Positions 56,302 through 60,651 of a stretch of 60,651 bases of DNA are shown here, piece after piece. Within the stretch, counting starts at the first letter, position 1. Each line of letters opens with the position of its first letter. The DNA lies in the NCBI GenBank assembly GCA_946553045.1, contig CAMNRO010000013.1, forward strand, positions 1 to 60,651. The letters are read 5' to 3'. The position numbers and the translations under genes are program-made. A model generated the notes under the pieces. It worked only from the letters and a program-made list of their open reading frames with translations, was not told the origin of the DNA and ran no database searches. Origin of the DNA: an uncultured Porphyromonadaceae bacterium (GTDB lineage: Bacteria > Bacteroidota > Bacteroidia > Bacteroidales > Muribaculaceae).

Positions 56302-59094
56302 TCAGAAACGGATACCGATATTGAGATACATGCGGAATCCCTGCGCGTAGCTGAAACGGTTGGGATATGCGTTGCGGTCGTAGTTCTTCGTATCGAGACG
56401 GCCCTGCTGGTAGGCGTAGGTCACAACGTCCTTGTTGTTGAGGATATTGTTGAGGTTGAGGTTCACGTTCATGCTCACCTTGCGGTTGATGTAGATAAGC
56501 TTGCCGATAGAAGCGTTGAGCGTGAATGCGTTCTTGAGCTTGTCCTGACCCGAGAGCTCCTCGATTTTGGCAATGAGCTCGCTTTCGGTAGGAGTCTTGC
56601 CGCCCCAGATGTCGGCTGTGGGCAGGTCGGGGAGTGCTTCGTGGTAAGCCGGTGCGAGGTTCACGTAGGCGTCGCCCTGCCAGGTGGCGTTGACGTTGAA
56701 GAACCAGTTCTTCGGAGCGGCCCAGTCGATGCCGAGGTTGGTGGCGAACTGGGGAGTGGAGCCCAGATAGTAGTTCTTCAGATATACGGTCTGGGTGGTG
56801 TCGGGGTAAAGACCGTTTTCGAACGTACGGGTGCCCTTGGGATTGTTCTTGTACTGGAAGCGCGAATACATTCCGGCGAACGAAGCCGTCACGCTCGGAG
56901 TAATCTTGTAGGCCATGCCGAGCTCGACGCCCTTGTAGGCGCGTTTCACACCCGAAAGCACTACATTAGTATATGTAGTATAGCGTTCGTCGTAGAAACC
57001 GTTGCGCTCGATAGCGTTGTCTACATTGGTGTAGAAGCCGGTGAGGCTACCGCGGAAACGGCGGTAGTTCCATATATACGAGAAGTCGCCCGAGAAAATG
57101 CGCTCGCTCTGCACGTCGTCTACCACGGTGTTCTTCACGCGCGGTGCGATAAACACGGCGTCAACCAGCGGAGCCTGGGTGCCATACTGCACGTGGGCGG
57201 CAAACTGATTGCGGCCGTCGAGCTTATAGAGGGCGCCGGCCTTGATGCTGGCGTTGTCGAAGCGGAGCATCTCGCTCTTGCCGAGCGAATTGTTCGGAGC
57301 GCGGCCGTTGCGCATCTTGCCGTCGCGCTGGAACTGGGTGTAGCTCAGCTGCAGGCCATAATTGATGTCCCACTTGGGCAGATTTATCACATTCTGGAGC
57401 CATGCCTCGGCGCGGAGAGCATAGATATTGTAGTCGTAGCCGAAACGGTCGCCCTTGCCTACATGGCGGTTGGGATTGTCGAGGTCGTTCTGCAGGTTGC
57501 CCGGAGCGATGGCGATGTCGCGGTCGCTGAAGGGGTCGATGTCGAGCCAGAACTCACCGCCGAGAAGGTCGCGGATAGTCTTGTAGTTCGAGCTCTTGGT
57601 ATAGTTGAAGCTGAGGCCGGCCTGGAGCGAGAGAACCGAATTGATGCGAGTGTTGATATACGAATTGAACATCGCGTTGATCTGATGGTTCGTTCTGTTC
57701 TCCATGATATACGACGAACCCTTGCGGTTGGGGTCGTCGGCGGCAAGACCCTCGTTCTGAACATTGTTCAGATAGTTTATCTGATAGAGGTCATCCCACT
57801 TGATCTGACGGAAAGCCTCGTCGTTCTTCCAGAGGTCAAGGTAGAGGTCATACTGCTCGCTGTTCTCGCCGTCCTCGCTGGCATAGTAGGAGGGCAGATA
57901 GCGGTAATATGTGGGGTTGGGGTCGAGCGCCTTGTAGTAGTTCAGCGCAGTGCGGTTGTAGTACACCGAGCGGAAAGCGGCGGCGGTATTCACCGTAGTG
58001 TTCTCCTTCTTGTAGATCCAGTTGAGAATCACAGTGGGGTCGAAAGTCTCCGTGATACGGGCCGAACGCTTCTTGCCGTCCTGATAGCCCCAGTCGGGGT
58101 TGTACAGATTCGAGCCGGCCAGGTCGTAGGCCTCCTGATAGGTGGGTCGGCCGGTGGCGCGCTGTGTCGGGCCGCCGAAAGCGGTGAGCGTAAGGGTGTT
58201 GTTGGCATTGATAAGCTTCTCTACCGAGAGGAACAGACCTGCCGAATTATAGAAAGTGCCTTCCATCACGCCTTCCTTGGCATATCGGCCGATGGCGCTC
58301 ACGGTGTAGGCCCAGCCGTGCTTGTTCAGACCGCTGGCATAGGTCACCATGCCGCGGAACATATAGTTCGAGTTCGTGAAAGCGACAGAACCGTTGAAGC
58401 CGGGCGCATAGAGGTCGGTGGTGGTGTTATAGTTCACCGAGCCGCCGATGTCGCCGAAGCCATAGTTGGCGGCGTCCATGCCCACTGTCGTGGTCTTGTT
58501 GCGGAACGCACGGCTTGTCATGCCAAGAAGCGTCGAGAAGTTGAAACGGCCGCGCACAAGGTCGTTGAACTTGATACCGTTGATATAAACGCTCTGATAC
58601 TGGCTGTCGTAGCCGCGGTAGCGGAAATACATCGGGCCGAAGTTATACGACGCCGTATTGTAGAAAATATTGTCGTTCGCGCCCGTCAGAGCCGAAATGC
58701 TCTGTGCCGAGCCCTCGTCATCGTCGAGAACGGCCTCGTCGAATACCAGGTCGGCGGCATCACCGTAGAAATCCTCGCCGATATTGTCCTGTGTAAGGCG
58801 GATTTCGCCTACATTCACCGTGCCGGCACCGATAGTGGCTTCTATGCCGGCGCTCTGGTAGCCGTCGCAGCTCACCACGATATAAGCGTCCGTATTGTCG
58901 GCAGTTTCCAGACGGAACTGACCGTTGAAATTAGTCGTCACGCGTGTGCCGTCCGCGCCGACCGATACATAGGCGCCGCTAAGAGGGCTGCCTGTACTTC
59001 CGTTGACAACAACGCCCACTACCGTGGCCGCCGATGCCAGCAATGCCGGCCAGAGAGCCGACAGAAGCACCAAGATAAAAAGTCTTTGTCGCAT
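56302..59094 (-). CDS. TonB-dependent outer-membrane receptor with carboxypeptidase-regulatory-like N-domain
   Basis: This 930-residue protein has a signal peptide (cut near LLASA), a CarboxypepD-regulatory-like beta-sandwich (about 23-100; VVGVVVNGSTGSPLSGAYVS), a plug domain (about 120-240; YRGYDSQYQSVYINGIKFND) and a 22-strand-type barrel ending in Phe (MYLNIGIRF). No obvious STN domain is present. It should import a ligand using TonB energy. The partner genes are DUF5689 lipoproteins rather than SusD homologs, so it is not a classical glycan locus. A promoter with 105 nt of leader lies upstream. Confidence 0.9.
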   Translation of the reverse strand: MRQRLFILVLLSALWPALLASAATVVGVVVNGSTGSPLSGAYVSVGADGTRVTTNFNGQFRLETADNTDAYIVVSCDGYQSAGIEATIGAGTVNVGEIRLTQDNIGEDFYGDAADLVFDEAVLDDDEGSAQSISALTGANDNIFYNTASYNFGPMYFRYRGYDSQYQSVYINGIKFNDLVRGRFNFSTLLGMTSRAFRNKTTTVGMDAANYGFGDIGGSVNYNTTTDLYAPGFNGSVAFTNSNYMFRGMVTYASGLNKHGWAYTVSAIGRYAKEGVMEGTFYNSAGLFLSVEKLINANNTLTLTAFGGPTQRATGRPTYQEAYDLAGSNLYNPDWGYQDGKKRSARITETFDPTVILNWIYKKENTTVNTAAAFRSVYYNRTALNYYKALDPNPTYYRYLPSYYASEDGENSEQYDLYLDLWKNDEAFRQIKWDDLYQINYLNNVQNEGLAADDPNRKGSSYIMENRTNHQINAMFNSYINTRINSVLSLQAGLSFNYTKSSNYKTIRDLLGGEFWLDIDPFSDRDIAIAPGNLQNDLDNPNRHVGKGDRFGYDYNIYALRAEAWLQNVINLPKWDINYGLQLSYTQFQRDGKMRNGRAPNNSLGKSEMLRFDNASIKAGALYKLDGRNQFAAHVQYGTQAPLVDAVFIAPRVKNTVVDDVQSERIFSGDFSYIWNYRRFRGSLTGFYTNVDNAIERNGFYDERYTTYTNVVLSGVKRAYKGVELGMAYKITPSVTASFAGMYSRFQYKNNPKGTRTFENGLYPDTTQTVYLKNYYLGSTPQFATNLGIDWAAPKNWFFNVNATWQGDAYVNLAPAYHEALPDLPTADIWGGKTPTESELIAKIEELSGQDKLKNAFTLNASIGKLIYINRKVSMNVNLNLNNILNNKDVVTYAYQQGRLDTKNYDRNAYPNRFSYAQGFRMYLNIGIRF

Positions 59095-59205
59095 ATTTAT
59101 AAATAAGTGTGATTTTTCGCGAAATTATGGTATATATTCTTTAAAATTTAAATCGTTGATTCGTCGGGTTGAAATGCTCTGTAATTTAAAGATGCTAAAA
59201 GCGGT

Positions 59206-59237
59206 CAAATTTAGTGAAAAAGCCCCCATATTTGCAA
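59206..59237 (-). promoter_or_regulatory. Promoter of the receptor/DUF5689 operon
   Basis: On the minus strand, TTG (59237-59235), 21-bp spacer, TAAATTTG (59213-59206). The leader to the ATG at 59094 is about 105 nt, long enough for regulation, but no riboswitch-like structure was recognised. Confidence 0.65.
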
Positions 59238-59273
59238 ATAAAACCCCAAAAAAAATCTAAATATATCTCAAAT

Positions 59274-59527
59274 ATTCAACCGCTCTGCGGTTGCTGTTAT
59301 CAATTGTGCTGATGGCCCTATGGTATATCCGCCTAATGGCGTCTAAACCATAGGCTATGTGAATATTAAACCGCCTTTGGCGGTTCATTCGCGCCGTTGC
59401 AGCTCCGCGACATAACCGCCGCATGGCGGTTAAACATTCACACAGCCTATGGTTTGGGCGTTCGCAGAACGACCATACCATAGGTCTCCGCGTCACCCCG
59501 CGCACCGCAACCGCATAGCGGTTGAAT
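59274..59527. repeat. Composite palindrome module 1 (254 bp), 3' side of the small transposase gene
   Basis: The unit starts ATTCAACCGC and ends GCGGTTGAAT. Within it are nested inverted repeats: CCTATGGTAT / ATACCATAGG, then CCATAGGCTATGTGAAT / ATTCACACAGCCTATGG (imperfect), and inner hairpins AACCGCC-TTT-GGCGGTT and AACCGCC-GCAT-GGCGGTT. The whole unit can fold as one large cruciform with smaller hairpins. It ends 18 nt from the stop codon of the transposase gene. Confidence 0.9.
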
Positions 59528-59545
59528 ATCAACGACATCGAAACA

Positions 59546-60001
59546 TCAATCCTCAAACAGATAGCGCTCATCGTAATCTATCTCATACCTGTCTAAAAAC
59601 AATTTCACCTCCTCCTGCAACGAACGACCCCTGTGATGCTCATATTGATGGCTGATATACTCTATCAACTCTGGAATAGCTGATTTAGAATAAGATAATA
59701 CAGCATATCCCCTCTGCCACTGAAAACGGCCCATAACCATGCGCTGATTATTTATATATCTCGATGTCGCTATCTTGAGATTATGGATTAAATCGGGTAT
59801 AAGCCGGTTGATATTATACTCAATCAGCATATGGACATGATTTTCCGTGCCGCCTACGATAGCACAATGATGACCCAGATTGCGGACAGTTGTTGCCATA
59901 TAAGCGTGAATGTTTGGGAGACGGTGTGCCGGTAAAACGCTGCATCTTCCTTTCACGGCAAAAATGACATGTAGATAGATTTTAGATAAGGTATTAGCCA
60001 T
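59546..60001 (-). CDS. Small HUH transposase, IS200/RAYT-like
   Basis: This 151-residue protein matches the Y1 transposase family: MANTLSKIYLHVIFAVKGR opening, the HUH motif in ENHVHMLIEY (about 54-62) and a candidate catalytic Tyr in LIEYISHQYEHHRGRS. The end EIDYDERYLFED is typical of the Bacteroidales subgroup. Such enzymes nick single-stranded DNA at hairpins. Both sides of the gene carry large palindromic modules, which fits the RAYT-REP arrangement where the enzyme recognises nearby hairpins. No partner TnpB gene is seen. Confidence 0.92.
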   Translation of the reverse strand: MANTLSKIYLHVIFAVKGRCSVLPAHRLPNIHAYMATTVRNLGHHCAIVGGTENHVHMLIEYNINRLIPDLIHNLKIATSRYINNQRMVMGRFQWQRGYAVLSYSKSAIPELIEYISHQYEHHRGRSLQEEVKLFLDRYEIDYDERYLFED

Positions 60002-60092
60002 GCAGCAAATGTAATAATTATATGTAATATGCGCAATAATAATGTGTAATAACTATTACACCGCCACCGGCTGATGTCTCTGCGGCCCGTCT

Positions 60093-60406
60093 ATTCAACC
60101 GCTGTCCGCGGTTGTTTTTATCGATTGTGCTGATGGTCCTATGGTATATCCGCCTGCGGCGTCTAAACCATAGGCTATGTGAATATTAAACCGCCATTCG
60201 GCGGTTCGTGCCGCCCCACAATCGCAACCGTTCCAAATGCGTTGCAATCGCCATTCGGCGGTTAATTTAGCGCCGTTGCTGCTCTGCGTCGCAACCGCCG
60301 AATGGCGGTTCAATATTCACACAGCCTATGGTTTGGGCGTTCGCAGAACGACCATACCATAGGTTCCCATGCCACCCCGCGCACAGCAACCGCACAGCGG
60401 TTGAAT
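60093..60406. repeat. Composite palindrome module 2 (314 bp), 5' side of the small transposase gene
   Basis: Same outer borders (ATTCAACCGC / GCGGTTGAAT) and the same nested CCTATGGTAT / ATACCATAGG and CCATAGGCTATGTGAAT / ATTCACACAGCCTATGG arms as module 1. The core is longer: AACCGCCATTCGGCGGTT followed by a spacer with ACAATCGCAACCGTTCC and further AACCGCC/GGCGGTT hairpins, as if one 57-bp subunit had been duplicated. The 91 bp between the gene and this module are AT-rich with no promoter identified. Confidence 0.9.
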
Positions 60407-60423
60407 ACCGACGCGTGCCATTT

Positions 60424-60651
60424 ATTCAACCGCTATGCGGTTGTCGTTTTTGATTAATCGTACATACCTATGGTATATCCGCCTGCGGCGTCTAAACCAT
60501 AGGCTATGTGAATATTAAACCGCCCTTCGGCGGTTCGTCCCGCCCCACAATCGCAACCGTTCCGAATGCGTCGCAACCGCCATTCGGCGGTTCGTGCCGC
60601 CCCACAATCGCAACCGTTCCGAATGCGTCGCAACCGCCATTCGGCGGTTCG
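60424..60651. repeat. Composite palindrome module 3, cut by the window end, with 57-bp tandem repeats
   Basis: The left border (ATTCAACCGC) and the CCTATGGTAT and CCATAGGCTATGTGAAT arms are repeated. From 60518 a 57-bp unit starting AACCGCC-NTTC-GGCGGTT repeats at 60518, 60575 and 60632, the last cut by the window end. The unit is one hairpin plus a spacer with ACAATCGCAACCGTTCC. The right half of the module is outside the window. Confidence 0.9.

Follow-up and report, generated by a model that had tools for sequence, protein, structure and literature searches.

The window, meaning the whole stretch of DNA analysed here, is an entire contig (C13) of 60,651 nucleotides from a 2.93 Mb genome in 85 contigs. 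Near its end lies a gene for a 151-residue Y1/HUH single-strand nuclease of the RAYT type (Pfam Y1_Tnp, E=3.6e-19), the only Y1_Tnp gene found in the whole genome. Two palindromic modules bracket it, and the contig stops inside a third. Within modules 1 and 2 we find arms of 36 nt (86% complementary) and 47 nt (91% complementary), together with inner AACCGCC/GGCGGTT and outer CAACCGC/GCGGTTG hairpins, so that all the parts described earlier from the letters alone (composite palindromes, shared arms, hairpins and a bracketed 151-residue gene) are present. The next long open reading frame downstream of the transposase gene (56302-59094, 930 residues) was read as a putative TonB-dependent receptor.

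Comparison of the copies reveals a directional unit of 111–116 bp, in which three hairpins stand in the order H3, H2, H1, the central H2 being separated from H3 by a spacer of ~10–14 nt whose last two bases are AG and from H1 by a linker of ~20–26 nt. The features of the locus are given below, with units assigned to the strand that reads H3 before the other hairpins and places the NAG foot 5' of H2.

59546-60001, minus strand: Y1/HUH single-strand nuclease (RAYT-type) gene, 151 residues
59273-59528: module 1, 256 bp, palindromic
60092-60407: module 2, 316 bp, palindromic
60423-60651: module 3, at least 229 bp, truncated where the contig stops
59273-59385, minus strand: three-hairpin unit, foot ATAG
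59414-59528, plus strand: three-hairpin unit, foot ACAG; H1 faces the gene, 17 bp from its stop side
60092-60206, minus strand: three-hairpin unit, foot ATAG; H1 faces the gene, 90 bp from its start side
60293-60407, plus strand: three-hairpin unit, foot ACAG; H1 to H1 with the next unit, 15 bp apart
60423-60535, minus strand: three-hairpin unit, foot ATAG; inverted partner past the contig end
59317-59354, strand not assigned: central hairpin H2 of the first unit
59446-59484, 60138-60174, 60325-60363 and 60467-60503: H2 of the other four units
60536-60651: 57-bp tandem repeat in the H3–H3 gap of module 3, with extra H3-like hairpins at 60575-60592 and 60632-60649

The original prediction spoke of nested palindrome modules; the palindromes are real, but each is an inverted pair of the directional unit, which also exists singly elsewhere. 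The surplus length of the 316-bp module is central, and a stretch there (60207-60263) resembles the 57-bp repeat of module 3; the modules therefore seem to differ in length because of this repeat, with its additional H3-like hairpin, in the H3–H3 gap.

In this genome, H3 has the form AACCGCC-loop-GGCGGTT and its spacer is ~14 nt long (for example AATATTCACATAG, ending in AG). H2 starts with CCTATGGT, finishes with ACCATAGG and is bulged, having an internal loop and an inner stem, while the linker that leads to H1 (CAACCGC-loop-GCGGTTG, then GAATA) is ~20–25 nt long and variable in sequence. Across 27 aligned units the foot of H2 reads ACAG in 15, ATAG in 10, and AGAG and ATTG in one each, with the AG kept in 26 of the 27. 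The inner stem of H2 carries compensatory changes at three pairs, where 13, 11 and 11 of the 27 sequences are doubly changed; 99.3% of cells are paired, compared with 24–52% when the partners are slid, and the 35 doubly changed cells exceed the shuffled mean of 14 (0 of 500 shuffles as high). The number of doubly changed pairs in H2 (three) did not rise above shuffles (345 of 500 as high), and, as the units are copies of one another, the compensatory changes represent few events. Two diverged H2-like copies were also seen in the same genome: CCTGGGGT/ACCCCAGG at L020 640-676, with the stem altered on both sides, and CCTATGGC/GCCATAGG at L013 399-437, with a different inner part. An Rfam scan of 58900-60651 gave a single match below the gathering threshold (Metazoa_SRP, 18.3 against 70 bits), which we discarded as chance.

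The 27 units fall at 12 sites on 9 contigs, by our own grouping of the aligned units and with the locus of the gene counted once. Their dispersal is also evident from the exact H2 pattern, which has 26 occurrences in the genome against none of its reversed control, and from a covariance-model search that gave at least 25 matches (25 candidates scored, 25 returned). Apart from three unpaired single units (L017, L018 and L021), neighbours commonly face each other: eight pairs do so with H1, seven of them across gaps of 15–17 nt and the eighth across the gene (563 nt), and seven pairs do so with H3, across gaps of 28, 28, 40, 43, 86, 94 and 100 nt. The uniform H1–H1 gaps mark the H1–H1 doublet as the regular form, with the gene occupying the place of the short doublet spacer. 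Several sites appear by eye to lie between genes, in an informal reading. Four contig termini, namely the ends of C13 and C25 and the starts of C26 and C28, lie inside units or no more than ~110 bp from them; at the start of C28 (L014 1-55) a long C run stands next to a repeat and is probably an assembly or sequencing artefact. When a single-unit locus was searched in 39 genomes of the genus, this one included, the matches were mostly to the downstream gene and are uninformative on mobility; neither an empty site nor a transposition event came to light.

Long inverted repeats with sharp borders could also derive from an unrelated DNA transposon, as its remnants or MITEs, with the gene having fallen in or beside it by chance. 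Reading the flanks of the 27 units revealed no shared flanking sequence and no apparent target duplication, the latter speaking against such an origin, as does the recurrence of the same layout, with other stem sequences, at related genes in other phyla (see below). We consider this explanation very improbable.

The protein contains the motifs NHVH (HuH), WQ and YISHQYEHH (YxxxQxxHH), which by motif would place it in subclass 1.2 of the TnpAY1 transposases. For this subclass, passages of PMC6006769 give Y---Q--HH, DH[IV]H, WQ and a median length of 148 residues, describe low copy numbers and copies of low mutual identity, chiefly in Cyanobacteria and Bacteroidetes, and report that terminal structures of the IS200 type are generally absent. 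The NHVH of our protein departs from DH[IV]H; DH is present in most relatives in an alignment of 29 sequences (A2; the partial L044 excluded), in which the Y, Q and final H of the YxxxQxxHH motif are invariant and one sequence has SH for HH. The NCBIfam IS200/IS605 model scores the protein at 52.7 bits, with a cut-off of 55. An AlphaFold prediction (pLDDT 90.5, pTM 0.84) matched ISDra2 TnpA best in Foldseek (E=1.7e-7), with 4er8, a RAYT of E. coli, in 30th place (E=8.6e-4), suggesting that the predicted fold is that of IS200/IS605 TnpA. The closest named homologues belong to Bacteroidales, Muribaculaceae among them.

At E<=0.001, homologues were detected in 80 of 146 related genomes, our own included, and three samples of loci were drawn up. 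A Bacteroidales set holds 30 open reading frames including our own, read by script from the returned loci (L042 was missed). A named set, which is a non-random sample, holds the 79 named loci among the matches listed when a species-genome collection was scanned with two peptide patterns. Twenty loci meant as IS200-type controls all proved to encode Y..Q..H proteins and were unusable as a control; 19 of them (L154 excluded) make up, with L161, a divergent set. The exact Y---Q--HH motif is present in 72 of the 79 named homologues, which come from Bacteroidota, Acidobacteriota, Planctomycetota, Desulfobacterota, Verrucomicrobiota and other phyla; judged by these motifs, the taxonomic range of subclass 1.2 is wider than in the passages of PMC6006769.

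We defined a hairpin family as an identical inner arm present in at least two copies within 800 bp of the gene, and used windows 3.6–4.4 kb away at 45 loci as distant controls. Such families accompany the genes: with a stem of at least 6 they occur at 36 of the 79 named loci as against 1 of the 45 control windows (gene flanks of the same 45 loci, 17), and with a stem of at least 5 at 67 of the 79 as against 4 of the 45. In the Bacteroidales set they occur at 24 of 30 loci at stem 5 or more and at 11 of 30 at stem 6, with six loci having no repeated hairpin even at stem 5; in the divergent set, which has no control of its own, 11 of 20 loci have them at stem 6 within 900 bp of the gene. With a first descriptor of the three-hairpin arrangement, 134 kb of flanks yielded 39 units (at 20 of the 79 loci) and 207 kb of control yielded one, counts that include some stretches twice, on both strands. 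A second, de-overlapped descriptor found 73 units at 38 of the 79 named loci, with 1, 2 and 0 in shuffled flanks and none in 97.6 kb of distant control; elsewhere it found units at 5 of the 30 Bacteroidales-set loci and 6 of the 20 divergent loci, with none in shuffles. The strict descriptor misses bulged units, such as that of L063, and a count of its labels over a quick tree was discarded for this reason.

When each of the 38 loci is represented by its best unit, 21 have a TAG foot (GTAG 9, ATAG 9, TTAG 3) and 5 a CAG foot, and the commonest triplet on the opposite side of H2 is TTT (6). Geometry was assessed on 53 units of the named loci, selected for an NAG foot and with spacers of 6–15 and linkers of 10–32 allowed: the spacer is 10–13 nt in 47 and the linker 20–24 in 43. 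These spacings are kept from Bacteroidota to Acidobacteriota and Planctomycetota, while the stem sequences differ. Examples include GTAG-footed units at three acidobacterial loci (L122, L125 and L128), a bulged H2 as in the window (L065) and, by reading, a full H3-H2-H1-H1'-H2'-H3' doublet upstream of the gene in genome G046 (L031). The gene-nearest unit, again pre-selected for an NAG foot, points H1 toward the gene on 40 of 48 sides, often from 10–50 bp away.

This orientation, together with the regular doublet, whose 15–17-nt H1–H1 spacer stands at the position of the gene in the reference locus, is what an autonomous single-strand transposon would present, in which the gene lies between two inverted three-hairpin ends and the dispersed H1–H1 doublets are MITE-like internal deletions. 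The genome, however, holds one copy of the gene to at least 27 units. To our knowledge, the ends of IS200/IS605 elements are not inverted repeats, which also counts against such an element, as do the low copy number and low inter-copy identity that passages of PMC6006769 report for subclass 1.2. We regard this alternative as improbable, though it is the most serious of the three. Alternatively, the folded structure with its compensatory changes and the location between genes at several sites (by eye) would suit structural or regulatory elements maintained by the host, such as transcript ends, stabilisers of mRNA 3' ends or sites for nucleoid proteins or topoisomerases, with the gene a neighbour, or domesticated and regulated by the units. 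Terminator-like sites in the region, however, show no excess (2 against a shuffle mean of 1.7), and a host role leaves unexplained why hairpin families cluster beside subclass-1.2 genes with H1 toward the gene; we give it little credence.

Other forms of repeat were seen beside some homologues. At L157 (G060:C22), a divergent homologue stands amid five hairpin families in repeated order (440-2153; arms GGAGTCC, GCCGTC, GGAGCCT, AGAGTCT and GCGACT), perhaps units of more than three hairpins. At L066 and L067, the loci of relatives filed under Paludibacter and Amniculibacterium, the gene is surrounded by numerous very short hairpins (CCCCGTAGGGG, GCTCCGTAGGAGC), which may be the repeat in minimal form. 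At L161 (G049:C26:1500-5500) a homologue has its own ACCGCC/GGCGGT family, and units of a second family lie ~1.6 kb off on that contig.

A model of the units of our genome, run against the 146 genomes, matched three others. G081 has five matches, and units laid out in the same way flank its gene; the only match in G062 begins 6 bp past the stop codon of the gene; and G049 has one match, units of the matched family being present there on a contig with a subclass-1.2-type gene and repeats of its own. On the proposal that module copies follow the presence of the gene, all three matched genomes belong to the 80, out of 146, in which a homologue was detected; taken alone this counts for little, but the match in G062 adjoins the gene. 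Against the proposal stands G043 (L162, L163), with at least eight matches to the unit family of G010 and no transposase homologue detected at E<=0.001 in an assembly that is 65% complete, possibly an orphan REP family.

A search with 14 unit pieces from 13 genomes, scoring two candidates per genome, matched 14 of the 146 genomes, namely the 13 sources and G043. Since all but one of the 14 genomes matched had themselves supplied queries, this joined-query search is circular for association and is informative for specificity alone; the cross-source matches (between G000 and G049, and a hairpin of G121 in G122) are short and weak, 29–41 bases. When more candidates were scored, these 14 genomes had from 2 to 114 matches each among the matches listed (matches, not units), and ten genomes of named loci had 2–39 each, again among the matches listed. 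Many are near full length in G146, the planctomycete of L068, and in G149, the Terriglobia genome of L094, and families are partly shared, that of L068 with G155 and those of L122 and L130 between acidobacterial genomes. G088, G105 and G148 have two matches each among the matches listed, so dispersal is not universal.

The modules had been called an order of magnitude larger than REPs of 20–40 nt; this is overstated, as it sets a doublet against a single hairpin. The modules are like BIMEs and REPINs, inverted REP pairs that have long been known, with inverted pairs as the dispersed form and, here, single units too. The unusual features are a basic unit of three hairpins and the subclass of the transposase. 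Among known systems, REPtrons are described in passages of PMC6006769, PMC8266576 and PMC3733652 with the same single-copy Y1/HUH gene, inverted and dispersed hairpin repeats, tetranucleotide foot 5' of the hairpin, inverted doublets and, in E. coli, a bulge. Their TnpAREP proteins are of class 2 (Y---NP), whereas ours is of class 1 (Y---Q--HH), and their GTAG or GTGG foot lies 0–2 nt 5' of the hairpin, whereas our genome has ATAG or ACAG and three hairpins per unit. With subclass 1.2 as presented in passages of PMC6006769, our protein and its relatives share Y---Q--HH, WQ, a length of ~150 residues, low copy number and Bacteroidetes hosts; Table 1 there enters REP as 'no', whereas hairpins flank most of the relatives sampled here. 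The automatic REP search of that study, as described in the same passages, required GTAG or GTGG and covered TnpAREP-encoding genomes, and the ATAG and ACAG feet would fail it; the published 'no' seems incomplete. No description of REPs for subclass 1.2, or of a three-hairpin REP, was met in the open-access literature searched.

Other systems share single traits with the locus. TIRtrons (TIRYTs), in passages of PMC3733652, have Y1 genes with long, partly self-complementary composite inverted repeats that recur in the genome, and their double inverted repeats and double palindromic TIRs are the nearest composite-repeat precedent we met; their proteins, however, belong to subclasses 2.1, 2.2 and 2.5 according to passages of PMC6006769, and just 2 of our 27 units contain GGGGWSAS, within the variable linker. 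The IS200/IS605 elements (IS608, ISDra2; subclass 1.1) are closest in fold and class and have hairpins near the gene and a guide tetranucleotide, but carry several near-identical tnpA copies, in contrast to the single copy, the extra HH after YxxxQ and the inverted three-hairpin units on both sides seen here. TnpAY1 class 3, described as intermediate between IS and REPtron in passages of PMC6006769, likewise combines a Y1 gene with nearby hairpin repeats of an atypical kind, in Planctomycetes and Acidobacteria; it differs in having Y----Q, W[TA] and a CnGA foot rather than Y---Q--HH, WQ and NAG.

Our data are best explained by a REPtron-type system of TnpAY1 subclass 1.2, with a single-copy HUH gene between inverted cognate three-hairpin REPs, a reading to which we assign a probability of about 0.72. 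The original prediction of a REPtron-like unit finds good support in the single-copy Y1/HUH gene, the inverted units on both sides, the dispersed copies and the same arrangement in other phyla. By analogy with REPtrons, we infer that the protein recognises, cuts and mobilises the units. According to passages of PMC8266576, TnpAREP cleaves single-stranded REPs at CT on the 5' or the 3' side of the hairpin, the foot GTAG can serve as a guide whose last two positions weigh most in two REPtrons, and the bulge is required in E. coli REPs. In our units the AG is kept, H2 is bulged and the unit is directional, which suggests that H2 with its foot may be the substrate and CT the cut site. Once a unit is exposed as a single strand, as might happen on the lagging-strand template, the protein would recognise H2 through its stem and 5' NAG foot and would cut where a dinucleotide pairs with A3G4 of the foot, which the published guide model gives as CT. 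The ends would then be rejoined, and units or H1–H1 doublets, as non-autonomous passengers, would be copied into new intergenic sites or transferred to them, while the gene would remain single-copy. More speculatively, the H3 and H1 spacings, near one and two helical turns, might reflect phasing.

A bolder reading of the whole subclass, which we offer tentatively and would not bet on at even odds, is that its proteins run a widespread mobile system that acts on single strands, crosses phyla and has composite three-hairpin ends, with the gene and its ends as the parent, the H1–H1 doublets as miniatures, and several hairpins, rather than one, recognised together. If true, such a parent element would link IS200/IS605 elements with domesticated RAYT–REP systems.

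Under the REPtron-type reading, the three-hairpin unit is a likely cognate DNA substrate for a large HUH subclass that has been catalogued without one, and it predicts a target for binding and cutting. Retention of A3G4 makes the guide model testable in a family outside the one in which it originated, and the regular spacings, together with the covarying central stem, pose the structural question of why three hairpins are used. Finally, units of this kind may account for palindromes between genes in gut and soil bacteria, and for some of the breaks in assemblies of their genomes.
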